49,077 nt of DNA from Desulfuromonas sp. TF (GTDB lineage: Bacteria > Desulfobacterota > Desulfuromonadia > Desulfuromonadales > ATBO01). Both the position numbers and the translations under genes were made by a program. Where the stretch lies: NCBI RefSeq assembly GCF_000472285.1, contig NZ_KI421418.1, forward strand, positions 299,531 to 348,607. The letters run 5' to 3'. A model generated the notes under the pieces. That model was not told where the DNA came from, made no database searches, and saw only the letters and a list, made by a program, of their open reading frames with translations. Each line of letters starts with the position of its first letter. Within the stretch, counting starts at the first letter, position 1. Shown piece after piece: positions 590 through 18,000 of this stretch.

Positions 590-597
590 GAATTTAA

Positions 598-1240: not shown

Positions 1241-1280
1241 CGCTTGCTTCCCTTCCAGCAAGCCACTTATTTTCAATGAA

Positions 1281-1780: not shown

Positions 1781-1860
1781 GCGCGATGCTGGCCTTCGTC
1801 CTCCACGAACACCACGCCTCTCACCTCCATCGGGGTTTTACCGACCTCGAACCACTGTTT

Positions 1861-1935
1861 ATGAAAATTACCAAGACATATTTTTACAATTAAATTATTG
1901 TTGACTGACCGGTATGTCGGTGATATTTTCATAAT
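1861..1935 (+). promoter_or_regulatory. AT-rich promoter region with inverted repeat
   Basis: An imperfect inverted repeat pairs 1861-1879 (ATGAAAATTACCAAGACAT) with 1914-1932 (ATGTCGGTGATATTTTCAT). A possible promoter, TTGACT at 1901-1906 with TATTTT at 1924-1929 (17-bp gap), overlaps the right arm. This is upstream of the ATPase gene at 1962 and could be an operator, but no cognate regulator is known. No RNA-type T-run supports a terminator. Confidence 0.35.
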
Positions 1936-1961
1936 AAAACTCTTGTTAATCGGTAGAAAAT

Positions 1962-3272: not shown

Positions 3273-3374
3273 AATGAGTCCTGGCTTTATCTAGTGAAAA
3301 CTTCGAGTTATTAGGCACCAGTTTTTCCAACTTCTCCCATATTGTGCCCCGCGATTGAAAGGTACGAATTCAGC

Positions 3375-3391
3375 TGTAAATAATTCCGACA
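3375..3391 (-). promoter_or_regulatory. 17-bp activator-site-like element
   Basis: TGTAAATAATTCCGACA on the plus strand is, on the minus strand, a full match to the TGTCGRNWWWWTTTACA element found before all five PEP-CTERM genes. It lies 228 bp before the GAF/HD-GYP gene. Its orientation relative to that gene is opposite to that in the PEP-CTERM promoters. A minus-strand GG-N10-GC (GC at 3315-3316, GG at 3327-3328) is 46 bp away, but no gene follows it. The rest of the 3273-3619 gap shows no gene. Confidence 0.55.
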
Positions 3392-3557
3392 AGGCTCTGT
3401 AAAATAGACCATCGGAAAACTTGAAATGGTCCTCCTCCTCGTCTGAACCTGGGCATAACATCCTGACCAGGCTGTATTAAATCCAACGAAATCTAATAAT
3501 TTGTTTATTGATGATGCCATAATTGTTTTAGAATCATTGTGAAACCTGCTCCAGGAG

Positions 3558-3573
3558 TAGCATGATATTTGCA
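3558..3573 (+). promoter_or_regulatory. Candidate sigma-54 promoter (imperfect)
   Basis: TAGCATGATATTTGCA matches the sigma-54 consensus TGGCAC-N5-TTGCA except for AG instead of GG at -24 and T for C. It lies about 46 bp before the ATG at 3620 and 166-167 bp after the 17-bp element at 3375. A rival candidate, TGGGCATAACATCCTGA near 3450, has the 60-bp spacing of the other promoters but TG instead of GC at -12. Either is uncertain. Confidence 0.35.
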
Positions 3574-3619
3574 TAACTTAAATTGACGCTTTTTCCTCCT
3601 TTTTGAAAAGTGACTTGAG

Positions 3620-5875
3620 ATGGAGAACGTTTCAGGGTCCGCCAGCATCAATGATGCCTTGCTTCCGGTCCTTCAGGAGATCTCCAACGCTATCGTTGTC
3701 GCCGACAACCTCAGCACCATCTCCCACCTCATGCTCGACCTGGCGATCCGGCACACCGGAGCGGAAAAGGGCTCCCTCATGCTCATTAACGGGCACCAGG
3801 AGCTCTATATCCACAGCGCCCAGGGGCTGGATTACCTGCTGGCCAGAAGTTACCGGGTCAAGCTGGGAGAAGGAATCGCCGGCATGGTGGCAAAAAGTGG
3901 AGAGCCGATGATGGTGGCGGACATCGAGGCGGACGAACGCTTTCGGGGGATCGGGAGGGACCGGTACGCCACGCGCTCCTTCATCTCCTGCCCCATCAAA
4001 GGCATGGAAAAGGTCTTGGGGGTTCTGAACATCAATGACAAGAGGGACGGCGCCCCCTTCACCGCCGATGACTTCGCTCTTGTCCGGATCATCGCCGGCC
4101 AGGCGGGGATCGCACTGAAAAAATCCCTCCTGGTCAAAAAGTTCAAGGACAAGACCGCCGATCTTGAAGAGGCCAACCGCAAGCTGATCGACGCCGATAT
4201 CGGCAGGTCGGAGTTCCTGACCCGTATTTCCCACGAGCTGCGCACCCCGCTCAACGCCATCAAGGGCTCCGTCTATCATCTGCAGAACTCCGGCGAGCTT
4301 CAGCCTTTACTGCAGAAGGAATTCTTTGACATCATCGGCCGCGAGACCGGCAAACTGATCGCCATCGTCGAAAAACAGCTCGACTTCCTTCGCTTTGAGG
4401 ACGAAGACCGCGTTCTGCGCAAAAGCATCATCTATTTGCGGGAAATTTTGACCGGCATTTGCCATTCCAGGACCCTGCGCAACGCATTAAGCAAAAAGAA
4501 TATTCAGTTGGACCTCGATCTGGGGGAGGAGGCTTTCAATGTCGTTGGTGACAAGGTCATGGTCAATCAGCTTCTCATCAACCTCCTGGAAGGGTTGGCT
4601 CATTTTCTCGACCGCGGGAGCCGGATTGTTATTTCCGTACGGGAGACGGGCTCGATAGTGGCCCGCTTCCACGTTTCCTCACGTCTGCCCGAAGATTTTC
4701 TTAACCACCATTTCACGTTCAATGACCTGTTCCTGAACGAACAATCGGAAGGGGCGATAAAAATATTCCTGGCCCGGAAGGCCGCGGAGGCACACGGCTG
4801 GCAGTTGATCGGCGACAAGCAGCAGGATGATTTCTTCATCACGCTCACCATCCCAATGGTAAAACGCCACCGTGTGGAGGCTGCCATCAACGCCACTCTG
4901 GAGATGATCCTTGAGTTCACCTCGGAGCTTTTCGGGGCAAACACCTGCTCCCTGATGCTGGCCGACGAGCTCAGTGGAGATCTGGTGATCAATTGTGCTC
5001 GCGGCCTGGATGAGGAGATCATCAGAAGAACAAGGATTAGCGTTCCGAGCCGGATTGCCGGGTGGGTTGCCCAGGAAGGAAAGCCGCTGCTGGTGAAGGA
5101 CATCGAGACGGATCCGCGCTTCCGCAAGAGGAACCTCGATGCCCAGTACAATACGAAATCTCTCCTCTCATTCCCCCTCAAGGCTGGTGAGCGTATTCTT
5201 GGAGTCCTGAACCTCAACAACAAGAAAAGCGGTGAGCCTTTCACGGATCGGGATCTGCGCGTCGGCACCCTCTTGCTCGAGCGGGTCACCGCTTTTGTTG
5301 AAAATCTTTACACCGACTCCTGGACCGACGAGGAGCTGGGAAGGCTGCTCCAGTCCCTTGACAGCCTCATCAATGCTGAAAGGAAGTACCCTAAGAAGGA
5401 TTCCCGCCTGCCCTGGCTGATGGAGAGGCTATTGGAGCAGCTCGAGGTTGGCGAGGAGGAACTGGGGGTGGCGCTCTACATCTCCATGATTTACGACCTG
5501 GGGCTGATGCTGGTCGGCAGCGGGGTGCTGGAGAAGATGGCCCCTCTATCGCCCCTGGAAGAATCGAGCCTCAGGGCTCACCCTTACAGCACCCTGGGCC
5601 TTCTGGGAGATTTCGAGCCCTCCCAAACCGTCCGCAAGGTCATTCTGCATCATCACGAGCGCTATGACGGAACCGGCTATCCGGACGGTCTCAAGGGGGA
5701 GGAAATCCCTTTCCTCTCCCGCGTCATCGCCGTCGTCGACGCATACTGTGCCATGACAGAGGCGCGCCCCTACCGCTCGGTCCTCAGCGAGGAGGAGGCC
5801 TTGGGGGAGATTCGCAAGGGGGCCGGGAAGCAGTTCGATCCGCGGGTGGTGGAGGCGTTGGAAAAGGTCCTTTGA
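3620..5875 (+). CDS. GAF / histidine-kinase-like / GAF / HD-GYP signalling protein
   Basis: A 751-residue soluble signalling protein. Domains in order: GAF (about 20-165), a dimerization/H-box region with FLTRISHELRTPLNAIKG (His205), a weak ATPase-like region (about 300-415), a second GAF (about 420-565) and an HD-GYP domain (about 600-750). The ATPase part has no recognisable DxGxG or GxGxG box, so kinase activity is doubtful. In the HD-GYP domain the HHE (678-680) and GYP (686-688) motifs are present, but the HD pair reads YDLG (Tyr625-Asp626), losing a metal-binding His and the Lys of HDIGK. HD-GYP proteins normally degrade cyclic di-GMP; here that activity is uncertain and a sensing or scaffold role is possible. 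No membrane segment is seen. The gene faces the PEP-CTERM island and has a 17-bp element upstream, suggesting it belongs to that regulon. Confidence 0.85.
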   Translation: MENVSGSASINDALLPVLQEISNAIVVADNLSTISHLMLDLAIRHTGAEKGSLMLINGHQELYIHSAQGLDYLLARSYRVKLGEGIAGMVAKSGEPMMVADIEADERFRGIGRDRYATRSFISCPIKGMEKVLGVLNINDKRDGAPFTADDFALVRIIAGQAGIALKKSLLVKKFKDKTADLEEANRKLIDADIGRSEFLTRISHELRTPLNAIKGSVYHLQNSGELQPLLQKEFFDIIGRETGKLIAIVEKQLDFLRFEDEDRVLRKSIIYLREILTGICHSRTLRNALSKKNIQLDLDLGEEAFNVVGDKVMVNQLLINLLEGLAHFLDRGSRIVISVRETGSIVARFHVSSRLPEDFLNHHFTFNDLFLNEQSEGAIKIFLARKAAEAHGWQLIGDKQQDDFFITLTIPMVKRHRVEAAINATLEMILEFTSELFGANTCSLMLADELSGDLVINCARGLDEEIIRRTRISVPSRIAGWVAQEGKPLLVKDIETDPRFRKRNLDAQYNTKSLLSFPLKAGERILGVLNLNNKKSGEPFTDRDLRVGTLLLERVTAFVENLYTDSWTDEELGRLLQSLDSLINAERKYPKKDSRLPWLMERLLEQLEVGEEELGVALYISMIYDLGLMLVGSGVLEKMAPLSPLEESSLRAHPYSTLGLLGDFEPSQTVRKVILHHHERYDGTGYPDGLKGEEIPFLSRVIAVVDAYCAMTEARPYRSVLSEEEALGEIRKGAGKQFDPRVVEALEKVL

Positions 5876-5897
5876 GACGGCGGGAGGACCGAAAAAA

Positions 5898-5952
5898 AAG
5901 AAGACCACAGGAAAGGCGGTGCAACTGGCACCGCCTTTCCTGTGGTCTTTCA
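5898..5952. terminator. Bidirectional terminator between convergent genes
   Basis: A long stem, AAGACCACAGGAAAGGCGGTGC (5901-5922) against its complement ending GGTCTTT at 5950, is flanked by an A-run on the left and T's on the right. It serves both the signalling gene ending at 5875 and the minus-strand PEP-CTERM gene ending at 5972. Confidence 0.9.
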
Positions 5953-5971
5953 GTCTTTGGAATAATTCGGA

Positions 5972-6586
5972 TCAGACCTTTTGCAGTTTCCGGTATGCAC
6001 CCAGGCCAATCAGGCCAGCGCCAAGAAGGATCATTGTCGAGGGTTCGGGGACTGGTGCAGGAGCACCGCCATTATTGGTAACAGTCGCTTGAATTGTCGT
6101 ATTGGTTCCACAAAAAATATCAACACCACTTTCAAAATCAATCGTCAGTTCATTCCCATCCAGAAGGGTAAAGGTCCTTGGTATGTCAGTCCAGGTCAGG
6201 TACCCTCCCGATATAACGCCAAGAACTGTACCCCAAAGCCCATTGCCATTGCCTGTAGTATCCGCATCATCAGGTGTTATGAAGCCCAAGGTCGCTTCAA
6301 CAGTAAAGTCTCCACCACCGGCTAATACAAACCCATCCAGATCAAGATTGAATTCAAAAAAATCAAAGGAGTAGCTCTCACCCTCTGCCAACGTGAAAGA
6401 TTCACTTGCGAGTGATGGTGACAGAGTTGCGGTTAATGTCGCTGTTCCAGGCCATCCAGAGGACGTGGTGCCACTCAATGTTACGGCAGATCCTGCGAGG
6501 TCCGTTTCGAAATAGACAGGAGTAGCGCAGACAAAATTACTGATACTGAACAAAAGGACGGGAAGTAACAGCAGCACTTTCTTCAT
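5972..6586 (-). CDS. PEP-CTERM sorting domain protein 1
   Basis: A 204-residue secreted protein. Residues 1-21 form a Sec signal peptide (MKKVLLLLPVLLFSISNFVCA). The middle is a Ser/Thr/Gly-rich, probably beta-rich domain with no family I recognise. The end has the exosortase sorting signal: VPEPST, a hydrophobic helix MILLGAGLIGLGA, and a basic tail YRKLQKV. Such proteins are cut and anchored or released by an exosortase at the inner membrane. The ATG at 6586 is preceded by AGGAGGG. The promoter is a sigma-54 type at 6635-6650 with a 17-bp element at 6701-6717. It is the only PEP-CTERM gene of the five on the minus strand, and its tail sequence differs most from the others. Confidence 0.92.
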   Translation of the reverse strand: MKKVLLLLPVLLFSISNFVCATPVYFETDLAGSAVTLSGTTSSGWPGTATLTATLSPSLASESFTLAEGESYSFDFFEFNLDLDGFVLAGGGDFTVEATLGFITPDDADTTGNGNGLWGTVLGVISGGYLTWTDIPRTFTLLDGNELTIDFESGVDIFCGTNTTIQATVTNNGGAPAPVPEPSTMILLGAGLIGLGAYRKLQKV

Positions 6587-6634
6587 GTTTCCCTCCTGGG
6601 AAAGTTTTTTACTACTGCCTGTCTATTCTTTTTA

Positions 6635-6651
6635 CGCACTATTTGTGCCAA
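6635..6651 (-). promoter_or_regulatory. Sigma-54 promoter of PEP-CTERM gene 1
   Basis: On the minus strand this reads TTGGCACAAATAGTGCG: GG (6648-6649), ten bases, then GC (6636-6637), matching TGGCAC-N5-TTGCA closely. It lies about 50 bp before the start codon. The 17-bp element ends 51 bp upstream of the GG. Confidence 0.85.
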
Positions 6652-6700
6652 TTAGAAAAACACGCTAAAGTGAAGGGTTTTTTTCGATGGCTGATTTTTG

Positions 6701-6717
6701 TGTAAAGGATTTCGACA
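6701..6717 (-). promoter_or_regulatory. 17-bp upstream activating element of PEP-CTERM gene 1
   Basis: On the minus strand TGTCGAAATCCTTTACA. It matches the shared element, oriented toward the promoter (TGTCG distal, TTTACA proximal). Its distance to the GG of the promoter is 51 bp, about one DNA turn less than the 60-62 bp seen in the other four genes, so it keeps the same helix face. Confidence 0.75.
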
Positions 6718-6731
6718 ACTTTCTTCGGTCG

Positions 6732-6816
6732 GGGGCCTCCTGGTCGGGCAAGGAATCAATGGCAGCGGATGAGAACTAACCAATTGTGACAATGATTTCA
6801 GCTGGTGTCCACCGGA
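6732..6816. repeat. Duplicated segment, copy A
   Basis: This about 85-bp stretch is clearly related to 10496-10581: both begin GGGGCCTCCTGGTCGGGCA and end in TTCCACCGGA-like sequence (here TGTCCACCGGA), with few small gaps. Copy B holds the ribosome binding site and upstream region of the CPBP protease gene. Copy A has no protease gene beside it, so it is a remnant of a segmental duplication that also carried the PEP-CTERM promoter region lying to its right. Confidence 0.75.
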
Positions 6817-6902
6817 GGGCTTCGAGTGTAAGTATCATGACCCCGCCGAGAGACCCTAACATTCCTGATGATCTGCCTCGGGAATGATCAGGATTTCTGA
6901 TC

Positions 6903-6919
6903 TGTCGGAAAAATTTACA
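6903..6919 (+). promoter_or_regulatory. 17-bp upstream activating element of PEP-CTERM gene 2
   Basis: TGTCGGAAAAATTTACA, a full match to the shared element. The GG of the sigma-54 promoter begins 60 bp further on. Confidence 0.8.
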
Positions 6920-6977
6920 AAGGCCGTAAAATAGAAGTCATGTCAAATAAAGTAACTTAAAAACAAATACTTATGCC

Positions 6978-6994
6978 TAGGCACGGATTCTGCA
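6978..6994 (+). promoter_or_regulatory. Sigma-54 promoter of PEP-CTERM gene 2
   Basis: TAGGCACGGATTCTGCA: GG at 6980-6981, ten bases, GC at 6992-6993. Transcription would start near 7004, giving a leader of about 130 nt before the ATG at 7136. Confidence 0.85.
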
Positions 6995-7045
6995 AATGAG
7001 ATCAGGTAAAACGCTTCGGAGGTAAAAATCAGTCGAATCCTCGAA

Positions 7046-7060
7046 CTTCGGAAAGGAGGG
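7046..7060 (+). other. Conserved leader element with Shine-Dalgarno core
   Basis: CTTCGGAAAGGAGGG lies about 75 nt before the real start and is followed by no start codon at a useful distance. Near-identical sequences occur in the leaders of PEP-CTERM genes 3 (8075-8090) and 5 (10862-10877). The gene's own ribosome binding site, AAAGGAGG, is separate at about 7120. Confidence 0.6.
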
Positions 7061-7135
7061 GCTCTAAACAGGTAGACCGCACCAATCAAACCCAGAAGAA
7101 CAACCACCGAACATTGCAGAAAGGAGGCTAAACCA

Positions 7136-7771
7136 ATGAGGAAGATATGTGGCGTATTGTTTGTGCTAGCAACATTTTTGTGGGCGACTCCCTCTGTTCA
7201 AGCCACGTCGCTGTTCGATTATCAAGGCTATCTTTCGGATACAAAAACCGTCGACGGGATCACGTCCACTGCTACCACAACCGGAGGCACACTGGCCTTC
7301 AATGACGGCTATGGGGTGGATGGGAACGGCTGGCCTGAAATAAATAATAATGAAACCCTTAATATCGAATTCAGTGAATGCGTCTTGGTGGAGGGGCTTC
7401 GCTTTACGCATTCAAACGGCACCAATAACGATTACGTTAAAATGTTGGTGGATGGAGTCGAGTTCGACTTTTCCTCAGACTTTGGTAGCAGTCACCCAGA
7501 GGAAATGTTCATATTGACACCATCCAGGGTAACCAATCCTGCAGACCAAGTGTTTGACCTAGACTTCACCGGGATTGGCGTTACCGGAACGAATTTCACC
7601 TTCCTGATACCAGCCGAATGGCAGGCCTCCGGAACCCTTGGAAGTGAGTACGTCCTTGGCTCCATGACTGTAGCGCTGTGCCCCGTTCCCGAGCCTTCAA
7701 CCATGCTCCTTCTCGGTGCGGGCCTGGCCGGCCTTGCGGGAGTGACCTGGAGGCGGCGGAAGAACGGGTAA
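7136..7771 (+). CDS. PEP-CTERM sorting domain protein 2
   Basis: A 211-residue exported protein. The signal peptide covers about residues 1-23 (ending SVQA). The core is acidic and beta-rich and has no family I recognise. It contains Cys-82 in FSECVLVEG and another Cys just before the sorting tail (ALCPVPEPST). The C-terminal signal is VPEPST, then MLLLGAGLAGLAG, then TWRRRKNG. The tail and the DNA after the stop codon are nearly identical to those of genes 3 and 5, while the cores differ. The ATG at 7136 has the strong site AAAGGAGG. Expression is predicted to need sigma-54 and an activator bound at 6903-6919. The function of the mature domain is unknown. Confidence 0.92.
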   Translation: MRKICGVLFVLATFLWATPSVQATSLFDYQGYLSDTKTVDGITSTATTTGGTLAFNDGYGVDGNGWPEINNNETLNIEFSECVLVEGLRFTHSNGTNNDYVKMLVDGVEFDFSSDFGSSHPEEMFILTPSRVTNPADQVFDLDFTGIGVTGTNFTFLIPAEWQASGTLGSEYVLGSMTVALCPVPEPSTMLLLGAGLAGLAGVTWRRRKNG

Positions 7772-7785
7772 GGTTTGGATCAAAA

Positions 7786-7854
7786 TGTAAAACCTTCCAA
7801 CATACAAATGATTCTGAAGGCCTATCCGGAGGACGGTTCCTCCGGATTTTTTTT
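7786..7854 (+). terminator. Terminator with relic 17-bp element before it
   Basis: A stem ATCCGGAGGA (7824-7833) / TCCTCCGGAT (7838-7847) followed by eight T's is a strong intrinsic terminator. Between it and the stop codon lies TGTAAAACCTTCCAACA (7786-7802), which resembles the reverse of the 17-bp activating element. The same order (element, then CCGGAG stem) follows genes 3 and 5. Confidence 0.88.
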
Positions 7855-7924
7855 GTCTGTTCGGCTGCTGTAGGAACAGTGCAGATTCCCATCTTTCCAG
7901 TGAGGTGCTGAAGCAGTTGCGGCC

Positions 7925-7941
7925 TGTCGAGAAAATTTACA
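7925..7941 (+). promoter_or_regulatory. 17-bp upstream activating element of PEP-CTERM gene 3
   Basis: TGTCGAGAAAATTTACA, a match to the shared element, 62 bp before the GG of the promoter. Confidence 0.8.
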
Positions 7942-8001
7942 AATCCTAATAGTTGTGTTTTTTTTCTTAAGATAATGTAGTAAAAACAAATACTTGAAAA
8001 T

Positions 8002-8018
8002 TTGGCTTTGCTTATGCA
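8002..8018 (+). promoter_or_regulatory. Sigma-54 promoter of PEP-CTERM gene 3
   Basis: TTGGCTTTGCTTATGCA: GG at 8004-8005, ten bases, GC at 8016-8017. The leader to the ATG at 8176 would be about 148 nt. Confidence 0.78.
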
Positions 8019-8074
8019 CTAAGGTGGTTGTGCATGGAAAGAGAACTCAGAAAAGTCAAGACGGCATTATGGAT

Positions 8075-8090
8075 CTTCGAAAGGAGGTGG
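8075..8090 (+). other. Conserved leader element with Shine-Dalgarno core
   Basis: CTTCGAAAGGAGGTGG is identical to the element in the leader of gene 5. Here TTCTGA follows instead of a start codon. A little further on a six-codon frame (ATG at 8108, MGKREA) could be read. Confidence 0.6.
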
Positions 8091-8175
8091 TTCTGAGAGA
8101 GGAAAAAATGGGAAAAAGGGAGGCGTGATAGAGGGAGATATTCCGGGCAGCATACCATTCAAAGGGAGGACAAAA

Positions 8176-8736
8176 ATGAAAAAAATCTTTTTTGCCGGAT
8201 TGTTTTTCACACTTATTGGTTTGACTAGTCTTGCCGGAGCGAGCGGCTATCCTTTCGAGGATCTGATTGACACATGGAATGTACTTGGGGTAGACGTTGA
8301 CGCAGTTCCGATTTTTCAGTTGGCCGGGCCCCTGGAATACACTCATGATATAAATGATTCCGTCAATTTCGGTGCTGGCCACGTGGTGACCGAGGCTTGG
8401 CTGGAACTCGACTTCACTAATGATATTAAAGACTTTGTCTATGGTTTTCCACTTTTTACCGAAAATATTACAGTCTATTGGGATGGAAATGAATGGGTTG
8501 TTGGAGAAGTGGATAACGGCCAATATACTCTTGGGCTCGACATCAGTTTCTTGAATACGGATGGTCTTCTGGATATCTCCATCGAGGTTTCGAACCCGTA
8601 TCATATTGCTGAAGCTTGGCTCGATCATTCGCGCCTTTACGGTTGCGCCGTCCCCGAACCCAGTACCTTGCTCCTCCTCGGCGCGGGCCTGGCCGGCCTT
8701 GCGGGGGTGGCCTGGAAGCGTCGGAAGAACGGGTAA
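8176..8736 (+). CDS. PEP-CTERM sorting domain protein 3
   Basis: A 186-residue exported protein, counting from the ATG at 8176. This start is chosen because GGGAGGA precedes it by six bases and a proper signal peptide follows (MKKIFFAGLFFTLIGLTSLAGA); an in-frame upstream start at 8125 would bury the signal. The core is acidic and rich in Trp, Asp and aromatic residues, with no known family. The tail reads VPEPST, LLLLGAGLAGLAG, VAWKRRKNG, nearly identical to genes 2 and 5. Sigma-54 promoter and 17-bp element lie upstream at 8002-8018 and 7925-7941. The mature function is unknown. Confidence 0.9.
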   Translation: MKKIFFAGLFFTLIGLTSLAGASGYPFEDLIDTWNVLGVDVDAVPIFQLAGPLEYTHDINDSVNFGAGHVVTEAWLELDFTNDIKDFVYGFPLFTENITVYWDGNEWVVGEVDNGQYTLGLDISFLNTDGLLDISIEVSNPYHIAEAWLDHSRLYGCAVPEPSTLLLLGAGLAGLAGVAWKRRKNG

Positions 8737-8759
8737 GTTTTAAAGCTTCGACGAAAAAA

Positions 8760-8827
8760 AGTGAAATATTCCGACTTCCAACGATTCTGAAGCCTTATCC
8801 GGAGACAAGTTCCTCCGGATTTTTTTT
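8760..8827 (+). terminator. Terminator with relic 17-bp element before it
   Basis: The stem ATCCGGAG (8797-8804) / CTCCGGAT (8813-8820) is followed by eight T's. About 20 bp before it the text matches the region after gene 2 (CCAACGATTCTGAAG-like). At 8760-8776 AGTGAAATATTCCGACT is a degraded reverse copy of the 17-bp element. Confidence 0.88.
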
Positions 8828-8878
8828 GCACCGAATTGAGAGGTTTGTGTTGGACAATATCGCTCGATAGTCTCTTGG

Positions 8879-8895
8879 TGTCGAATAATTTTACA
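8879..8895 (+). promoter_or_regulatory. 17-bp upstream activating element of PEP-CTERM gene 4
   Basis: TGTCGAATAATTTTACA, 60 bp before the GG of the promoter. Confidence 0.78.
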
Positions 8896-8953
8896 GTTCT
8901 CTTTATAAGGGGGTATTAGCAAATTTTTTGATGTAATAACGGTCACTTAACAA

Positions 8954-8970
8954 TTGGATCGCAATTTGCA
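8954..8970 (+). promoter_or_regulatory. Sigma-54 promoter of PEP-CTERM gene 4
   Basis: TTGGATCGCAATTTGCA: GG at 8956-8957, ten bases, GC at 8968-8969. The -12 half is a perfect TTGCA. The leader of about 100 nt lacks the CTTCGAAAGGAGG element found in genes 2, 3 and 5. Confidence 0.8.
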
Positions 8971-9081
8971 TAAAAATGAGACTAAGTGCAAAGGCAGATG
9001 GCTGATGTCGATCCGATTGGCTATCGCGCTGTCCTGAATAGAACATAACCATGTTGCCAAAGCAGGGGAAAGGAGATCACC

Positions 9082-9729
9082 ATGAAGAGAATGTTTTTAA
9101 TCTTATCCGGAGTGGCTTTAGTCTTTGGATTGACGGTCAATGCACATGCCTTGATGTTCGATTTCACCGGGTCTCTTGAGACGGGTACCAGCTCAATGGT
9201 TTTTTCTGAATCCGGGGTTGAGTTGACTGTGACGGCTGAAAGACAGACCGGAGATAGCATTCTGGTGACTAGGAATCTAACGGGCGGCTTGGGGGCATTA
9301 ACCGATAGCGTTGACGATCCCCTTCTGGATTCCGTCGGTCCGAACGAAAGACTTATCTTCACTATAACCCAGTTGCCCGTCGGGATCGACGCCCTGATTC
9401 TGGAAAGTATCTATTTCAATGCATATAACGCCGGCAATGAAGACTTCGGTATCATTATTGATGGGGTCGACATGCTCGGGAATGAATTCAGTTCACCAAC
9501 TGATCTTTGGAATGTGGCAAACGATTTGACCATGGAGCAGAGGACGATCAACAGTTTCTTTAGTATCCGGGCGACGGATGCAGGTGGTGAAGAAAACTTT
9601 CGCATCGGAAGTATGGAATTTACTCTGTACACCGAGCCAGCGCCGGTTCCCGAGCCTTCCACTCTGCTCCTTCTCGGCGCCGGTTTGACGGGACTTGCCG
9701 TCTTCCGGAAGTTTAAGAAGTCTGCCTGA
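9082..9729 (+). CDS. PEP-CTERM sorting domain protein 4
   Basis: A 215-residue exported protein. The signal peptide spans about residues 1-23 (MKRMFLILSGVALVFGLTVNAHA). The core begins LMFDFTGSLETGTSS and contains many beta-type segments; it may be a carbohydrate- or matrix-type domain but I do not recognise a family. The tail reads VPEPST, LLLLGAGLTGLAV, FRKFKKSA, of the same type as the others but with its own terminator. The ATG at 9082 follows AAAGGAG. It carries the same promoter layout as its neighbours but is the most diverged of the plus-strand members. Confidence 0.92.
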   Translation: MKRMFLILSGVALVFGLTVNAHALMFDFTGSLETGTSSMVFSESGVELTVTAERQTGDSILVTRNLTGGLGALTDSVDDPLLDSVGPNERLIFTITQLPVGIDALILESIYFNAYNAGNEDFGIIIDGVDMLGNEFSSPTDLWNVANDLTMEQRTINSFFSIRATDAGGEENFRIGSMEFTLYTEPAPVPEPSTLLLLGAGLTGLAVFRKFKKSA

Positions 9730-9753
9730 CATCTCCAAGCGGCCGGTGAACGG

Positions 9754-9787
9754 AAAAAGGGATGCGAGAGAGCTCGCATCCCTTTTT
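9754..9787. terminator. Bidirectional terminator between convergent genes
   Basis: AAAAAGGGATGCGAG (9754-9768) pairs with CTCGCATCCCTTTTT (9773-9787). It ends PEP-CTERM gene 4 on the plus strand and the CPBP gene on the minus strand. Confidence 0.92.
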
Positions 9788-9809
9788 CTGTGATTGTCGG
9801 TTTTTTCAA

Positions 9810-10493
9810 TCACCAGAAACGCCACTGCCCCGTCTGCAGCACATAGATCCCCAAGGCCAGGTTGGCCACCGCATGAGCCAGGATGCACTGGGAGATGCTT
9901 CTTGTGTAATAAAGGAGCAGGTTGAAGGCCGCTCCCGCCATCATGCCGGCGAGAAAGTAATTGTGCTCAAGCCCGAACAGGACGACCGTTGCCAGGAATG
10001 AGGCCCAGGAAAAAGTTCCGATCGGGACCCTCGAAAATTTCCCGTCGATGATGTAACGCAGCAGAAACGAACGCCAGAAAAGCTCTTCCATCACCGGCAC
10101 GACCAGAACGGCTCCGGCGAGGCGCACCGCCGTCATTCCCGTTCGTGAAGTGTCGTCGAAAACATTCGGATTGAAACCTGACGGCGCCCCCTGCGTGCCG
10201 AAGCTCCAGTCCATGTTGACCCACAGCCAGAAAACCCCCAAACCCACAAGCAGGCTTGCGACTGTCTGGGTAGGCCTTCCTAGGTCGCCAAGGCGCATCT
10301 CCCGGTAGTGCTTGCGAAAGAAGATCAGGACTGCCCCCACCGCAACCGCTTTCACCGGATAGATCCAGTAGATGGCGTGGGTTCCCACCTGGAGGATATC
10401 CTTGCCCTGCAGGAAGCGGGCGAACTCCTCCAGGCCGATGAAAAGCATGAACAGGGCAAAAGGGAAGACGCGGGAAAAGGTTTCTTTTTTCAA
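9810..10493 (-). CDS. CPBP-family (CAAX-like) membrane protease, exosortase-associated type
   Basis: A 227-residue integral membrane protein with about six or seven hydrophobic segments. It has the three motifs of the CPBP/Abi (CAAX protease-like) family: EELFWR (EExxxR) near residue 136, FGLEHNYFLAG near residue 172 and HAVANL near residue 207. A dedicated subfamily of these proteins occurs with exosortase systems, so it may process or degrade exported PEP-CTERM proteins; that role is inferred. The start is TTG at 10493, supported by AGGAGG six bases upstream on the minus strand. It sits between PEP-CTERM genes 4 and 5 in the opposite direction. A weak copy of the 17-bp element (10583-10599) lies upstream but no good sigma-54 promoter follows it. 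Confidence 0.85.
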   Translation of the reverse strand: MKKETFSRVFPFALFMLFIGLEEFARFLQGKDILQVGTHAIYWIYPVKAVAVGAVLIFFRKHYREMRLGDLGRPTQTVASLLVGLGVFWLWVNMDWSFGTQGAPSGFNPNVFDDTSRTGMTAVRLAGAVLVVPVMEELFWRSFLLRYIIDGKFSRVPIGTFSWASFLATVVLFGLEHNYFLAGMMAGAAFNLLLYYTRSISQCILAHAVANLALGIYVLQTGQWRFW

Positions 10494-10495
10494 CA

Positions 10496-10581
10496 GGGGC
10501 CTCCTGGTCGGGCATGGGATCGAATGCCAGCGGATGGGATTGAGCCAATAATGACATGATATTCACTGATTTCCACCGGAC
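10496..10581. repeat. Duplicated segment, copy B
   Basis: It matches copy A at 6732-6816 over about 85 bp. It contains the ribosome binding site of the CPBP gene and the sequence upstream of it. To its right, as in copy A, lie a 17-bp element and the sigma-54 promoter of a PEP-CTERM gene (2 or 5). Confidence 0.75.
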
Positions 10582-10607
10582 GGATGAAACATCCCGACAA
10601 ATGATTT

Positions 10608-10628
10608 CCCCTCCCCTGGTGGGAGGGG
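10608..10628. repeat. GC-rich hairpin within a low-complexity insert
   Basis: CCCCTCCC (10608-10615), loop CTGGT, GGGAGGGG (10621-10628), followed by AAGGGGAGGGGG and a run of CCCTCTCCCCCCTCTC. The whole stretch, about 10603-10695, has no counterpart in copy A's flank at 6820-6900, so it looks like an inserted dispersed repeat. Confidence 0.6.
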
Positions 10629-10725
10629 ATTAAGGGGAGGGGGCAGGCCAATCACCCTCTCCCCCCTCTCTCATCGAGGGAGGAGTGAGATGGTCGGAAG
10701 TCCTGCTTCAGGGATGATTCCAACC

Positions 10726-10742
10726 TGTCGGGAAAATTTACA
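10726..10742 (+). promoter_or_regulatory. 17-bp upstream activating element of PEP-CTERM gene 5
   Basis: TGTCGGGAAAATTTACA, 62 bp before the GG of the promoter. Confidence 0.8.
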
Positions 10743-10802
10743 AGGGCCTGCAGAGGGATGGTGTTATTGAATAAAACACATTAAAAACAGATAGTTATCT
10801 CC

Positions 10803-10819
10803 GGGGCACAGGTTATGCA
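10803..10819 (+). promoter_or_regulatory. Sigma-54 promoter of PEP-CTERM gene 5
   Basis: GGGGCACAGGTTATGCA: GG at 10805-10806, ten bases, GC at 10817-10818. The -24 half GGGCAC matches TGGCAC in five of six places. The leader is about 139 nt. Confidence 0.85.
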
Positions 10820-10861
10820 TTAGGATTTGTCAAAACGCTTTCGAGCAGGTTAACCATTGGA

Positions 10862-10917
10862 CTTCGAAAGGAGGTGGAATGAGTAAATATAGAAGAAAGA
10901 GGGCGGGAGCACTCTAA
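10862..10917 (+). other. Leader Shine-Dalgarno element with 12-codon mini-ORF
   Basis: CTTCGAAAGGAGGTGG (10862-10877) is directly followed by ATG at 10879 and a short frame, MSKYRRKRAGAL, ending TAA at 10915-10917. CTTTCGA (10838-10844) can pair with TCGAAAG (10864-10870), which would hide this site. In genes 2 and 3 the element is kept but the mini-ORF is lost. Whether it is translated or acts as a decoy or standby site is unknown. Confidence 0.4.
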
Positions 10918-10967
10918 ATGGCAACAAGCCGAGAACGAGAATTTCATTTCCGAAAGGAGGACAGTGT

Positions 10968-11666
10968 ATGAAAAAAGCAATCTTATCAGTTGCTTTGCTG
11001 GCGGCAGGATTGTTTCTGTACAGCATGCCGGCTCAAGCCGTTCAGTTGTTGAGCGAGGATTTTACAGGGGTAACGATCGCCGACAGTCTGAGCGTCAACC
11101 TTGTCACCGCAACCACCACTGACGACAACCTGAATACGTGGATCGATTTCCCTAATTCAGATCGATGGGCCATAAATACCACGAATCCGTATGGAACGGG
11201 TGATATTGCCCAGCATTTGGTTCAGGATCCGGACCAAACCAATATTATGTTCTACGCCTTCGAGAACCCTTGCACCGATGGGGGAACGCTAACCCTGGAT
11301 TTCGACTATATCCTAACTTCCGCCAGGGGGACCGTCACAATCCTGGGCATGAATTACGGTACGCATGACCTTCAGCCTTTTCTCCCGATTGTGGACGGCG
11401 TAGACGGGGTCTTCCTCCTTAATGAAACGCTGAGTACCACGACTAATTCCCTCACCTCTGCCCATTTCGAAACGTTCGTTGCCGGCTTGGGCGATTACGA
11501 TGTCCTTGCCTTTGGAATCACCATGGGAGGAGGAGGCGGATATCGCTTCATCGATAACATTGAGCTGAACTGCGCCCCCGTCCCCGAACCCAGCACGCTG
11601 CTCCTCCTCGGCGCAGGCCTGGCCGGCCTTGCGGGGGTGACCTGGAGACGGCGTAGGAATGGGTAA
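10968..11666 (+). CDS. PEP-CTERM sorting domain protein 5
   Basis: A 232-residue exported protein. The signal peptide covers about residues 1-24 (ending PAQA). The core starts VQLLSEDFTGVTIADSL and ends in GGGYRFIDNIELNC, a pattern often seen in beta-sandwich (jelly-roll) domains of secreted proteins; this is a suggestion only. Two Cys residues (near 101 and just before the tail) could pair. The tail reads VPEPST, LLLLGAGLAGLAG, TWRRRRNG. The ATG at 10968 follows GAAAGGAGG. Its 5' region matches that of gene 2 and its 3' region matches genes 2 and 3. The histidine kinase and sigma-54 activator genes follow on the same strand. Confidence 0.92.
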   Translation: MKKAILSVALLAAGLFLYSMPAQAVQLLSEDFTGVTIADSLSVNLVTATTTDDNLNTWIDFPNSDRWAINTTNPYGTGDIAQHLVQDPDQTNIMFYAFENPCTDGGTLTLDFDYILTSARGTVTILGMNYGTHDLQPFLPIVDGVDGVFLLNETLSTTTNSLTSAHFETFVAGLGDYDVLAFGITMGGGGGYRFIDNIELNCAPVPEPSTLLLLGAGLAGLAGVTWRRRRNG

Positions 11667-11701
11667 GGTCCCGACTTGCATTTCAGATCCTCGGGGCAAA
11701 A

Positions 11702-11718
11702 TGTAAAATATCCCGACG
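11702..11718 (-). promoter_or_regulatory. 17-bp activator-site-like element after gene 5
   Basis: TGTAAAATATCCCGACG, i.e. CGTCGGGATATTTTACA on the minus strand, one mismatch from the shared element. It lies between the stop codon of gene 5 and its terminator, as the relics do after genes 2 and 3, and about 480 bp before the kinase gene. Confidence 0.55.
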
Positions 11719-11751
11719 GAAACTTTCCTTGAAGATCGATACTGAATGCTT

Positions 11752-11780
11752 ATCCGGAGAGCCGTTTCTCCGGATTTTTC
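11752..11780 (+). terminator. Terminator of PEP-CTERM gene 5
   Basis: ATCCGGAGA (11752-11760) pairs with TCTCCGGAT (11767-11775), followed by TTTTTC. The stem is homologous to those after genes 2 and 3. Confidence 0.88.
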
Positions 11781-11796
11781 TTTGTCTGATTATGAC

Positions 11797-11813
11797 TGTA
11801 AAAAATTCCGACA
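11797..11813 (-). promoter_or_regulatory. 17-bp activator-site-like element before the kinase gene
   Basis: TGTAAAAAATTCCGACA, a full match on the minus strand, 95 bp (about nine turns) after the site at 11702. Between here and the kinase start at 12199 there is no gene. The only GG-N10-GC before the start is TTGGAAATATACAGGCA at 12134-12150, a weak match, so autoregulation of the kinase/regulator pair is possible but not shown. Confidence 0.5.
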
Positions 11814-12198
11814 GAAACTGAATTCCTCTCTCCACGGGAGGCTTGATCCCGGGCAAGCGATGTTTCATCCGCGGGTATGTTGCTTTTTTATTGATTTATA
11901 GTATCCATTTACATGCAGGGTGTTTTTGGGAAAGAAAAACTAAAAAAGTACGAATTATCCGGGTTTTATGCCGGTCATTGTCTCCAATTTTGAAATATTT
12001 TACGGAGTCCCGATTAATATCAGATACTTAGCCTTAGACGGTGATCATTAAGCTCTCTTTTTGTTGTGGCATGGTCCATTTTCCAGCTTGCCTTTCCCGT
12101 TTATTCATCATGGGAAAAGCGAACCAGGGATAATTGGAAATATACAGGCAGGGTCGTTTTATTTTAAAATTCGGTACGTTCGAGGACTTGGGGGCATT

Positions 12199-13224
12199 GT
12201 GAGTTCTTTTGATTTTACCGTTGACCGGCAATTACGGGTTGTCGGCATAAACAGGGGGTTGGAAATAGCCAGGACCGATTCTTCGGAGTCGTTTCTGGGA
12301 CATCTCTATCACGAAGTACTGCCCCTGATTTTTTACGACGGCGCCGAGGCGGTCGGCCAAGTTGTTCTCAACGGCCAAGCTCTCACCTTGAAGGACCACC
12401 GCATCGCCTGTTGGCACCAACATTCCTATGCCGATATCGACATCAGCCCTCTTCTCGACGGCGCCGGCAAGACCACCGGTGCCTGTGTGAACATCACGCT
12501 GCGTGAAGGTTGCAGCCTGGTTGCCCACCTTAAAAAATCCCAGCACCTGATCGAAATCGGCAAGAACGCCGCCATTCTTTCACACGGTGTAAGGAATCCG
12601 CTTAATGCCATCAAGGGAGCGGTGGTTTATTTAAAGAACCGCTACAGCCAGGAAGCTACCCTGCTCGAGTTCACCCGGATCATGGAGGAAGAGATCTCCC
12701 AACTCGACCGCTTCATCACCGGTTTTCTCAGCGGCTCGGCCGGCGAAGCGGAGAAACGGAGCACCGACCTCAATGAACTGCTGAAGAAGATCGAAAAACT
12801 CATCTCCCTGCAAGCCAGGACCTCCGGCATCGAACTCGCCTTCCGTTATGGAAAAACCCTCCCCTTGAAGATCGATTCCTTTCAGATCGAGCACGCGATC
12901 CTCAACGTGATCAATAACGCCCTCAATGCCCTCTCCCCCGGCGGCAGGATCATGGTTGAGAGTCGCGCCGAGGTGACGGAGGGAGCTTCTTTCATGGCGG
13001 TGGAGATCTCCGACAACGGCCCCGGGATTTCTGGAGGGACCGATGAGAACTACCTGTCCCCGCTGCAGGAGTCGGCGCGTAGCCGTGGAAAGGGGTTCGG
13101 GTTGTTCATTACTCGTGAGATCCTTCAGCATCACGGAGGGAAGCTGGAATTAACGAGCCGGAAAAATCAAGGTACCACGGTCAGGCTGGTGCTGCCGGCA
13201 GCAGAGGGGAATCACATATTATGA
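12199..13224 (+). CDS. PAS-type histidine kinase (NtrB-like)
   Basis: A soluble sensor kinase of 341 residues from the GTG at 12199. The frame is open back to 12061, but 12199 has a G-rich ribosome binding region and starts right before the PAS-like domain (FDFTVDRQLRVVGINRGLE). The H-box is ILSHGVRNPLNAIKG with His129; N-box NVINNALNAL; G1 box DNGPGI; G2 box GKGFGL. All catalytic parts look intact, so it should autophosphorylate and pass phosphate to the regulator encoded next, whose gene overlaps it by 4 bp. No membrane segment is seen, so it senses an internal signal or a partner. It differs from the large multi-membrane-helix PrsK kinase known from exosortase systems, so I do not give that name. 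Confidence 0.88.
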   Translation: MSSFDFTVDRQLRVVGINRGLEIARTDSSESFLGHLYHEVLPLIFYDGAEAVGQVVLNGQALTLKDHRIACWHQHSYADIDISPLLDGAGKTTGACVNITLREGCSLVAHLKKSQHLIEIGKNAAILSHGVRNPLNAIKGAVVYLKNRYSQEATLLEFTRIMEEEISQLDRFITGFLSGSAGEAEKRSTDLNELLKKIEKLISLQARTSGIELAFRYGKTLPLKIDSFQIEHAILNVINNALNALSPGGRIMVESRAEVTEGASFMAVEISDNGPGISGGTDENYLSPLQESARSRGKGFGLFITREILQHHGGKLELTSRKNQGTTVRLVLPAAEGNHIL

Positions 13225-14570
13225 GCGAACCTGGCGGCGGGAAGGTACTGCTGGTCGATGATGAGCCCAACGCGCTGCGAGTTCTGTCCGCCATCCTGAG
13301 TCAGGAGGGCTATGAGACCTGTCAGGCTAAAAGCGTCGCGGAGGCGATGAAAAGGCTCTCCAGCGACCTGGATGCCGCCATCACAGACATGCGGATGCCG
13401 GACAGGGACGGGATGCAGTTTTTCGAGTACGTGAACCAGCATTTCCCCGATCTGCCGGTCATTTTCCTGACCGCCTACGGCACGGTCGACTCGGCGGTCC
13501 AGGCCATGACCCGGGGGGCATTCTACTATGTCATCAAGCCCCCAGACTATGCCGCTCTCAAGGGGATCCTGGCCCGGGCGGTGACGCAGCGGCGTCTGAA
13601 GCGGGAGGTGGAGCAGCTGAAAAGCCGCCTTGCGGCCCAAGACAGAATATCCCCGATCAACGGCAAGACCCCGGCCATGCAGAGGGTTCTCAAGCAGGTC
13701 GTCGCGATCCGCGATTCCGAGTGCAGCGTCCTCGTCTGCGGCGATACCGGAACCGGCAAGGAGCTGATCGCTCGGGCCCTGCATTTTCAAAGTTCCCGGA
13801 AAAGCCAGCCCTTCGTCGCGGTAAACTGCGCCGCCATTCCCGGACAGCTGATCGAGTCGGAGTTGTTCGGCTACGAGAAGGGGGCCTTTACCGGCGCACT
13901 GAGGAACCGAATCGGCCGGGTGGAGGAAGCCTCCGGCGGCACCCTCTTTCTCGACGAGATCGGCGAACTGGAACTATCGGTACAGGCCAAGCTCCTCCGG
14001 GTTCTGCAGGAGAAGGAGATCGTGCGGCTTGGCAGCAATCGGAAGGTCAAGGTCGACTTCCGCCTCATCTCCTCCACCAATCGGGACCTCGCTTTCGAGG
14101 TGCAGTCGGGCAACTTCCGGGAGGATCTCTTCTACCGGCTCAACGTGGTGAAGATCGATCTTCCCCCCCTGCGCGAGCGCCGGGACGACATTCCCTTCCT
14201 GGTCTCTGAGTTTCTAAGCGAGTTCTGTGCCCGGGAAAACAAAACGCTCACCATTTCCGGGGAGGTTCTGCAGGTCATTCAAGATCACTCCTGGCCGGGG
14301 AACATACGCCAGCTTCGCAATATCGTCGAACGGGCGGTTGTTCTTGCTCAGGGGCCGGAGATCACGATACAGGAGCTGCCACAGGAGTTCTCTCTCACGT
14401 CCCCGAGGAGACCCTCTTCCGAGCAGGTCAGAACTCTGAAGGAAATGGAGGTCCAGGCCGTTCGGCAAGCCCTGGAACAGTGCGGCGGCAACAAGTCGAA
14501 TGCTGCCAAGATGCTCGGCTTCTCCCGCAAATCCTTATATAAAAGGCTTCGGGAATTCGGAATATCGTAA
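13221..14570 (+). CDS. Sigma-54-dependent response regulator (NtrC family)
   Basis: A 449-residue transcription activator. The receiver domain (1-120) has the phosphorylated Asp56 in AAITDMRMPD, a Thr in FLTAYG and Lys in VIKPP. The AAA+ domain (about 145-380) has Walker A GDTGTGKE, the sigma-54 contact loop GAFTGA (221-226) and LFLDEIGEL as Walker B. A Fis-type helix-turn-helix ends the protein (GGNKSNAAKMLGFSRKSLYKRLREFGIS). It is co-translated with the kinase upstream (ATGA-type overlap). Because it lies beside five sigma-54 promoters that share a 17-bp element, it is the best local candidate to bind that element; this is inference. Its receiver sequence is a generic NtrC/AtoC type, unlike PrsR of exosortase systems. 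Confidence 0.93.
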   Translation: MSEPGGGKVLLVDDEPNALRVLSAILSQEGYETCQAKSVAEAMKRLSSDLDAAITDMRMPDRDGMQFFEYVNQHFPDLPVIFLTAYGTVDSAVQAMTRGAFYYVIKPPDYAALKGILARAVTQRRLKREVEQLKSRLAAQDRISPINGKTPAMQRVLKQVVAIRDSECSVLVCGDTGTGKELIARALHFQSSRKSQPFVAVNCAAIPGQLIESELFGYEKGAFTGALRNRIGRVEEASGGTLFLDEIGELELSVQAKLLRVLQEKEIVRLGSNRKVKVDFRLISSTNRDLAFEVQSGNFREDLFYRLNVVKIDLPPLRERRDDIPFLVSEFLSEFCARENKTLTISGEVLQVIQDHSWPGNIRQLRNIVERAVVLAQGPEITIQELPQEFSLTSPRRPSSEQVRTLKEMEVQAVRQALEQCGGNKSNAAKMLGFSRKSLYKRLREFGIS

Positions 14571-14583
14571 AGCCGTCACCTTA

Positions 14584-14632
14584 CTCCCCAGTCCCCAGCC
14601 CCCAGCCCCTCGTCCCTCGTCCCTCGTCCCAT
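14584..14632 (+). repeat. Heptanucleotide tandem repeat
   Basis: Seven units in perfect 7-bp register: CTCCCCA, GTCCCCA, GCCCCCA, GCCCCTC, GTCCCTC, GTCCCTC, GTCCCAT. It lies just after the regulator gene and before the promoter of the exopolysaccharide operon. Confidence 0.85.
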
Positions 14633-14648
14633 GCACTTTGACACACCT

Positions 14649-14696
14649 GTCTCCATTGGAAACACATAATTGACTGGACTTGTTTCTCCTGGAAAC
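14649..14696 (+). promoter_or_regulatory. Paired dyads, probable enhancer of the exopolysaccharide operon
   Basis: Two related 15-bp dyads: GTCTCCATTGGAAAC (14649-14663) and GTTTCTCCTGGAAAC (14682-14696), starting 33 bp (about three turns) apart. The second is a perfect GTTTC-N5-GAAAC palindrome. The gap from its end to the GG of the sigma-54 promoter is 64 bp, like the 60-62 bp in the PEP-CTERM promoters. The motif itself is different from the 17-bp element, so a second activator is likely. Confidence 0.65.
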
Positions 14697-14758
14697 GATC
14701 CCCGTGCCCCATGGGACGAATAATCTTCTTTCCTCTGACGGATCGAGGGGTTACAGCA

Positions 14759-14775
14759 TTGGCATGCCGTTTGCC
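14759..14775 (+). promoter_or_regulatory. Sigma-54 promoter of the exopolysaccharide operon
   Basis: TTGGCATGCCGTTTGCC: GG at 14761-14762, ten bases, GC at 14773-14774; close to TGGCAC-N5-TTGCA. Transcription would start about 37 bp before the first gene of the operon at 14823. Confidence 0.85.
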
Positions 14776-14822
14776 TATATTGAGAGCGAGTTAACATTCA
14801 GCACCTGCAAAGGGGGATAGGA

Positions 14823-15218
14823 ATGGTGTCGGAGCGAAGCAAGATTCCGATAAAAAAGATCCTGATTGTCGATGAGGAGCGGTTCTGTCGAGTCTGCACA
14901 GCTCTTCTGGGTTTGGTGGGAATCGAACCGGCCCGGATCGTCTGCCGTACACGCTTCGACTCCGACCATAGCCTCGAAGGCTACGAGCTCGTCATTACGA
15001 GTTTTCCCTATGATTCGTGCCTGCTCGAACGATTGCAGGTGCAGGATATACCGGCAATGGTCTTTTCCGACTGTCTCAGCGGGGAACTTCTCGACAACCT
15101 CAAGAAGTCAGCCAACATAGGGTGCATGATCAAGCCCATCGATTTTGAGAGGTTCAAAGAACTGCTGGGCAAACTCCTGCAATCCGTCAACAGCTTAGGA
15201 GGGTGCCAAATTGTCTAA
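14823..15218 (+). CDS. Pseudo-receiver domain protein heading the exopolysaccharide operon
   Basis: A 131-residue protein with the shape of a response-regulator receiver: first strand KKILIVDEERF, third strand region ELVITSFPYDS, and the late strand plus Lys in GCMIKPIDFERFKELL. The acidic pair after strand 1 is partly kept (DEE), but the place of the phosphorylated Asp is taken by Thr/Ser (ITSF), so ordinary phosphorylation is unlikely. No output domain is present. It is the first gene after the sigma-54 promoter and its end overlaps the prsT start by 8 bp, so the two are translationally coupled. The role could be a phosphorylation-independent partner of a regulator or kinase; I know no named family for it. 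Confidence 0.7.
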   Translation: MVSERSKIPIKKILIVDEERFCRVCTALLGLVGIEPARIVCRTRFDSDHSLEGYELVITSFPYDSCLLERLQVQDIPAMVFSDCLSGELLDNLKKSANIGCMIKPIDFERFKELLGKLLQSVNSLGGCQIV

Positions 15219-17883: not shown

Positions 17884-18000
17884 AACATCTGGAAGGGCCG
17901 CCCCCGCTTTGGGAGCACCCCGTCGCCGCAGATTCCGCTGTTTTAACCGAGACGGCTGCCATGCGGCCCTACTGATCGAAGGGAAGTTCTGAGGAGGACC

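Follow-up and report, generated by a model that had tools for sequence, protein, structure and literature searches.

The left part of the 49,077-nt stretch of Desulfuromonas sp. TF DNA analyzed here (the window; NZ_KI421418.1, C7:299531-348607, in a genome of 4.4 Mb) carries five genes, g1-g5, whose proteins end in a PEP-CTERM sorting tail (TIGR02595, 24-29 bits, cut-off 16). Two further PEP-CTERM genes, g6 and g7 (30 bits), lie past the right end of the window in the stretch L124 (C7:348000-367999), with g6 ~51 kb beyond g5. Two other tail matches in the genome exceed the model cut-off: the one on C10 looks truncated, and the one on C17 is weak (18 bits). Four of the seven genes, g2, g3, g5, and the distant g6, have a common 3' module, which consists of the PEP-CTERM tail, the stop codon, an inverted 17-bp box of the PrsR type, and a terminator. 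The genes of the window and their modules are as follows:

5972-6586, minus strand: g1, PEP-CTERM gene without the shared 3' module and without a 3' untranslated region (UTR) match in pairwise alignments
7136-7771, plus strand: g2, PEP-CTERM gene, 211 aa
7679-7855, plus strand: g2 3' module (tail, stop, inverted box at 7786-7802, terminator)
8176-8736, plus strand: g3, PEP-CTERM gene, with its ATG at 8176
8644-8828, plus strand: g3 3' module (tail, stop, inverted box at 8760-8776, terminator)
9082-9729, plus strand: g4, PEP-CTERM gene without the shared 3' module, a control
10968-11666, plus strand: g5, PEP-CTERM gene
11574-11783, plus strand: g5 3' module (tail, stop, inverted box at 11702-11718, terminator)
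11797-11813: second inverted box of g5, past the module

The DNA similarity among g2, g3, g5, and g6 begins abruptly about two codons before PEP (just before V-PEP) and ends at the T-run of the terminator, with no evident similarity 5' of the module start in the alignment; all four copies have the same orientation. The terminator TCCGGAG...CTCCGGATTTTT occurs exactly four times in the genome, behind these four genes, with no occurrence of its reversed control, and a genome search with the 3' block of g5 returned only the four module genes, the next match having an E of 0.02. The CCGGAG-stem terminator, which the preliminary description of this DNA had reported for g2, g3, and g5, thus has a fourth site at g6, and what was taken there for a degraded 17-bp element is the upstream box of these genes, inverted and placed between the stop codon and the terminator.

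The similarity of tails, 3' UTRs, cores, and upstream regions was assessed by local alignment against dinucleotide shuffles. Among g2, g3, and g5, the Z values are 33.6-39.7 for the tails and 15.3-20.1 for the 3' UTRs, while the cores remain at shuffle level (-0.6 to 0.9); with g6 included, the six module pairs give 30-42 for the tails and 11-38 for the 3' UTRs, and the cores of all 21 pairs of g1-g7 range from -1.5 to 1.5. The signal peptides of the module genes, like the rest of their cores, have no DNA similarity in local alignment. The earlier claim of constant ends with unrelated cores in g2, g3, and g5 therefore stands, the ends being more alike than the cores in pairwise alignment, and the set is larger than claimed by the addition of g6. 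In the tails, 94 of the 137 synonymous codons compared over the six module pairs are identical, against a simulated mean of 46.6 and a maximum of 75, and none of 20000 runs reached 94; the control tails of g1, g4, and g7 share 19 of 46, with 16.5 expected. Since the shared synonymous codons exceed the expectation from codon usage, whereas the control tails lie at expectation, protein constraint is insufficient to account for the identity of the module tails.

At the 5' side, the features comprise boxes, promoter elements, a leader motif, and a duplicated 85-bp segment, the second copy of which adjoins a divergent gene:

6732-6816, plus strand: 85-bp segment, first copy, at the start of the g2/g5 5' homology
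6903-6919, plus strand: g2 upstream box TGTCGGAAAAATTTACA (motif 1 of Haft et al. 2006)
6980-6993, plus strand: g2 -24/-12 sigma-54 element (GG-N10-GC), 60 nt after the box, read by eye
7925-7941, plus strand: g3 upstream box, two mismatches, from the scan
8004-8017, plus strand: g3 -24/-12 element, 62 nt after the box, read by eye
8075-8087, plus strand: leader 13-mer CTTCGAAAGGAGG, g3 copy
8879-8895, plus strand: g4 upstream box, three mismatches, from the scan
9810-10493, minus strand: gene for a CAAX prenyl-protease-related protein of PEP-CTERM systems (TIGR03008 above cut-off)
10496-10581, plus strand: 85-bp segment, second copy, with its start at the ribosome-binding region of the divergent CAAX gene (read by eye)
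10726-10742, plus strand: g5 upstream box, one mismatch, from the scan
10805-10818, plus strand: g5 -24/-12 element, 62 nt after the box, read by eye
10862-10874, plus strand: leader 13-mer CTTCGAAAGGAGG, g5 copy

A scan finds the 17-bp box upstream of each of g1-g7, with 0 to 4 mismatches relative to the g2 box, and a GG-N10-GC element follows 60-62 nt past the box in g2-g6 (by eye). Passages of Haft et al. 2006 (PMC1569441) describe the upstream cis-site of PEP-CTERM genes as a 17-nt box ending in TTTACA, a spacer of ~60 nt, and a -24/-12 element. The shared upstream element and promoter spacing that the preliminary description had counted among the cassette ends are thus present; since the cis-site is this known PrsR/sigma-54 site, they are expected in any member of the regulon, and a cassette explanation is not needed for them. 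Untrimmed upstream scores are misleading for g3, g4, and g7, whose upstream regions take in 3'-end sequence of the gene before them; after trimming, 5' similarity is clear for g2-g5 (Z 28.7) and g2-g6 (14.7), weak for g3-g5 (6.4), g2-g3 (4.9), and g5-g6 (3.8), and absent for g3-g6 (1.8). A Z of 4.0 is obtained even for g1-g7, a control pair, so the box alone may account for the weak values.

Starting with the 85-bp segment, g2 and g5 align, with indels, as far as their start codons and share ~400 bp of upstream sequence. The duplication of this segment, also reported earlier, amounts to 81% identity over 88 nt, other genome matches having an E of 0.035 or worse, and because the CAAX gene has its ribosome-binding region at the start of the segment, the copy at g2 appears to be duplicated from the DNA between the CAAX gene and g5. 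Exact copies of the leader 13-mer CTTCGAAAGGAGG occur in the genome at g3 and g5 only; g2 has it with one extra base, and it was not seen by eye in g6; to this extent a leader common to g2, g3, and g5 is retained, although the 5' end of g3 is weakly shared at most. In the same three genes, a second ribosome-binding-like sequence adjoins the real start codon (by eye). A riboswitch or structured leader is unsupported, as Rfam returned only the tmRNA in positions 1-20000 of the window; the leader folds have z values against shuffles of 0.68 (g2), 0.18 (g3), and -3.0 (g5, with 0 of 200 shuffles better) and no structure common to the three. A dispersed repeat was also rejected, the 3' block and the 85-bp block being without further convincing copies in the genome.

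The core of g3 is 57% identical to that of L267 (genome G097) and 46% identical to that of L268 (G051), with a third, marginal match in G094 (28%, E 0.007); L267 and L268 are PEP-CTERM genes with tails and 3' ends other than those of g3. The alignment with L267, from another family, spans the length of the g3 core, which has no similarity to g2, g5, or g6. At the DNA level, g3 and L267 score 80 in the core (shuffle maximum 30), 47 in the tail (29), 16 in the 3' UTR (26, i.e., chance), and 29 upstream (33); g3 and g5 score 123 in the tail, 56 in the 3' UTR, and 35 upstream. A box and a sigma-54-like site belonging to L267 itself were read by eye. At the cut-offs used, the g2 core had no match among 133 other genomes of the order and the g5 core none among 135. 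The g6 core has one marginal match in the order genomes (E 0.006) and, in phmmer among 13 cores, borderline matches in one direction to L274 (E 0.0034) and L279 (E 0.0072); a squalene-cyclase-like nature of the L279 core was rejected, the match lying below the Pfam cut-off (E 0.0019) with weak PDB support (E 0.13). In two of the 25 loci whose gene order was compared, L046 and L048, a PEP-CTERM gene with a core homologous to that of g1 lies directly downstream of the CAAX protease gene, and in Desulfuromonas sp. TF, g2-g4 sit between the CAAX gene and g1. A faint similarity connects the g2 and g4 cores (28.9 bits versus 24.6 for the best shuffle; 500 shuffles, 365 scored).

Reuse of 3' ends was also surveyed in relatives. 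The search covered 134 genomes of the order, the own genome included, of which 70 had PEP-CTERM matches; 80 stretches came from 24 of the 69 other matching genomes, among the matches listed and with genomes that had several listed matches taken first, and were joined by 80 CAAX loci. This gave 141 called genes (8 own, 87 from order relatives, and 46 from CAAX loci), of which 127 were usable after 14 with a short flank or a core <40 aa had been dropped. Tails were called by pattern, which includes some false calls, and own counts are out of 7 because one of the 8 own tail calls is false. Cores are termed unrelated, or without similarity, when blastp gave no match at E 1e-5, unless stated otherwise.

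Among 152 same-genome pairs whose cores are dissimilar, a shared 3' UTR (score >=38) occurs in ten, six of them own and one each from G014, G049, G071, and G079. Between genomes, 80 pairs without core similarity share one; the pairs compared are not independent, these 80 involving 42 genes. In 54 of the 80, both genes belong to one module, which has tails such as WYGRKRKKA or AFYRRKRK, an inverted box in many cases, and the terminator AAGCGGGG...GGCTCCGCTT. This terminator has 10 exact occurrences in 10 genomes, nine of which stand behind an intact PEP-CTERM open reading frame (ORF); at the tenth (G051, L276 ~1400-1530), the same tail end occurs without an in-frame PEP, which reflects either decay of the gene or misassembly. 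No blastp match at E<=0.5 links any two of the nine intact cores (154-339 aa), the best phmmer value among them being 0.017 in one direction. Within the 80 CAAX loci, module sharing was found in 0 of 9 within-locus pairs.

Two side observations were made on other 3' ends. The 3' UTR and tail of g4 (9730-9860) resemble a gene in L067, with scores of 48 and 47 and no blastp match between the cores at E 1e-5. In L203 (G079), the same short ORF start (~58 nt, ~90% identical) is repeated downstream of two PEP-CTERM genes.

The comparison supports separate histories of ends and cores: the g3 core occurs elsewhere with other ends, and the module of the relatives stands behind dissimilar cores. The same body with a different end was found elsewhere for one core of four (g3), and the same signal-bearing end was found on non-homologous bodies, the non-homology being judged by sequence only. 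We propose, with a probability of roughly 0.75, that these are PEP-CTERM genes of a PrsR/sigma-54 regulon whose ends and cores have recombined, i.e., a terminal reassortment. Homologous recombination between paralogous ends, four copies of which are oriented the same way, would either move cores between ends or copy ends onto existing genes, and a new surface protein would thereby gain its sorting tag, a copy of the regulator site, and a terminator in one step. This suggests that new surface proteins arise through shared DNA ends recombined with different middles. The repeated duplication followed by core replacement that was first put forward agrees with the separate histories indicated by the g3 core and the modules of the relatives, but the order of events is not established; since the g3 homologs are already PEP-CTERM genes with ends of their own, copying of ends onto existing PEP-CTERM genes by gene conversion fits equally well. 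The swapping of surface proteins as an active mechanism, also put forward at that stage, is not established.

Several observations weigh against terminal reassortment. No swap was observed directly, and the comparison covers one genome of the family. Codon sharing is uneven, as g2-g5, the pair with the best 5' match, shares 13 of 25 synonymous codons against 8.5 expected (z 1.95), and some control-to-module tail pairs reach a z of up to 2.2. The shared 5' end of g3 extends little past the regulon-wide box and promoter. None of the seven relative pairs tested shows clear sharing of 5' ends (Z -0.8 to 4.4), so that the relatives show 3'-end reuse and the two-ended form is seen in the window's genome only; one of the seven, L203/3745-L204, has a common tail but not a common 3' UTR. 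Between species, the tails diverge along with the cores, and a 3' UTR is shared in 7 of 58 pairs with homologous cores versus 80 of 7790 cross-genome pairs without core similarity, as plain descent predicts; per pair, descent is thus the best predictor of end sharing, yet most end-sharing pairs have dissimilar cores. The ten genomes with the terminator AAGCGGGG...GGCTCCGCTT were mostly picked for the module already seen in them (eight so chosen), and nine of the ten sites were already known. Finally, no recombinase or exchange machinery was met among the annotated proteins, although no systematic search for one was made.

A sub-case of the proposed reassortment, for which we see a real though less than even chance, is that only concerted evolution took place, the cores having always been separate PEP-CTERM genes that never moved while one 3' end, along with some of the 5' ends, spread between them by gene conversion. 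The homologs of the g3 core, PEP-CTERM genes already and in the case of L267 equipped with a box and a sigma-54-like site, speak for it, as does the imperfect coincidence of 5' with 3' sharing. Passages of Haft et al. 2006 (PMC1569441) also report PEP-CTERM tails to be more alike within than between species and call the tag a modular domain. Contrary to this, the ~400 bp shared upstream of g2 and g5, with the 85-bp piece at the CAAX gene, look like a segmental duplication, and, since searches of the order genomes returned no match for the cores of g2 and g5, nothing indicates that these had earlier existed as genes of their own.

It is improbable that whole genes were duplicated and their cores then diverged fast, with no exchange. 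The structure models of g2 and g5 are both strand-rich, as common ancestry would allow, but of low confidence (mean predicted local distance difference test, pLDDT, 43 and 40), and about two thirds of the synonymous codons in the tails would have been kept against no DNA similarity in signal peptide and core. For g3 it is contradicted, as the core aligns with L267 of another family and not with g2, g5, or g6.

The inverted box raises the question of its own role. With up to three mismatches and within 90 nt past the stop codon, it occurs in 4 of 7 own genes, 8 of 87 genes of order relatives, 2 of 46 genes of the CAAX-locus set, and 7 of 1420 control ORFs; a stricter local control, with 105 ORFs taken from PEP-CTERM loci, contains one (p 0.012). 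Forward boxes past the stop occur in 9 of 87 genes of order relatives (controls 16 of 1420 and 3 of 105), some of them apparently the next gene's own site. In G043, G041, and G040 (L198, L239, L245), for example, a forward box lies 1 nt past the stop, behind tails like GLGFWHRRRKA, and at least one of these is apparently the upstream box of the next gene. An antisense sigma-54 promoter inside the tail, paired with the inverted box, was rejected since the spacing is wrong in the few tails read by eye. The inverted box is possibly a second activator-binding site or a relic of the origin of the module. More speculatively, and in our view doubtfully, PrsR boxes could bracket the gene as an inverted pair, in which case the bracketed unit with its own terminator would be a heritable, exchangeable cassette, its cores swapped between standard ends and the 3' box holding newcomers in the regulon, e.g., through looping. 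A dedicated cassette-exchange system, with the inverted box pair as the site of recombination or exchange, is very unlikely: the enrichment over the 1420 control ORFs would suit it, but it shrinks against the local control, forward boxes are equally frequent in relatives, a role as regulator site accounts best for the box, the shared sequence runs beyond it to the terminator, and no recombinase was encountered among the annotated proteins, in which none was systematically sought. That there was no special history, and that selection on the sorting tag and the regulator site produced the similarity, is scarcely credible, for although box, sigma-54 promoter, and PEP-CTERM tag are known and functionally constrained, g1, g4, and g7 serve the same functions yet lack the shared codons, the 3' UTR, and the terminator, and the terminator pattern is confined to four genes.

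The genes g1-g7 flank an XrtA exopolysaccharide (EPS) locus, which includes the following features in the window:

12061-13224 and 13221-14570, plus strand: histidine kinase and sigma-54 response regulator, PrsK/PrsR-like, below model cut-offs
15211-17883, plus strand: PrsT TPR lipoprotein (TIGR02917 above cut-off)

Above their cut-offs in this locus are PrsT, an EpsB-type sugar transferase, an export protein, a chain-length determinant, an ATPase, a deacetylase, and a FemAB family protein, and the autokinase falls slightly under its own. Exosortase A is found at L124:8070-8960 (TIGR03109, 221.6 bits versus a cut-off of 208) and is adjoined by EpsI, which also exceeds its cut-off, both just left of g6, and PrsK (557.6, cut-off 300) and PrsR (652.2, cut-off 502.6) lie beside g6. 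The XrtA locus hence contains two pairs of kinase and sigma-54 regulator, one at 12061-14570 by g5 and the other at L124:10659-14128 by g6. The g1-g7 locus is otherwise an ordinary XrtA/PEP-CTERM sorting locus. The core of g7 (L124:15457-16059) is C-type-lectin-like (PF00059, E 7e-4, slightly under the cut-off), and its tail agrees with that of g5 in the first 21 nt and then differs, possibly as a mosaic. Elsewhere in the window, a tmRNA gene (598-954) is followed by genes for a GIY-YIG protein and an AAA_14/DUF4143 ATPase (1281-3269); island insertion sites often lie at tmRNA ends. A box-like sequence TGTCGGAATTATTTACA at 3375-3391 (minus strand), with two mismatches to the g2 box, stands upstream of a GAF-HisKA-GAF-HD gene (3620-5875) and not at a PEP-CTERM gene.

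Compared with known systems, the locus resembles PEP-CTERM/exosortase A (XrtA, EpsH) with PrsK, PrsR, and PrsT, as described in passages of PMC1569441, in its tails, box, spacer, -24/-12 element, single-gene units, long upstream regions, and nearby exosortase and EPS genes; unlike that description, it has a 3' inverted box, a private terminator, DNA identity through the 3' UTR, and incongruent histories of core and end. Terminal reassortment of secreted effectors (Stavrinides et al. 2006, as cited in a passage of PMC5675462) is similar in that a secretion signal is joined to unrelated functional sequence, whereas in this environmental bacterium the joined part is a C-terminal sorting tag with 3' UTR, box, and terminator and belongs to a regulon of surface proteins. 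The pepA gene of Aquincola tertiaricarbonis, as portrayed in parts of PMC9850573, is likewise an RpoN-dependent PEP-CTERM gene; its -24/-12 promoter has been mapped, an enhancer is predicted upstream, and a stem-loop following the gene is a putative terminator. Those parts mention no end sharing with paralogs, unlike g2, g3, g5, and g6. No description of shared 3' ends or core exchange in PEP-CTERM genes was found among the matches listed from the open-access PMC literature. The sorting system, the regulon, and the type of process are known; no description was found among those matches of an end module, shared at the DNA level, that combines an inverted regulator box with a private terminator.

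PEP-CTERM protein sets have few shared domains and a fast turnover, according to passages of Haft et al. 2006 (PMC1569441). The reuse of a DNA end module that brings the tag, a copy of the regulator site, and a terminator would be a concrete route by which such sets gain members, and the module-specific terminators may serve as a marker for counting end-reuse events in genomes.

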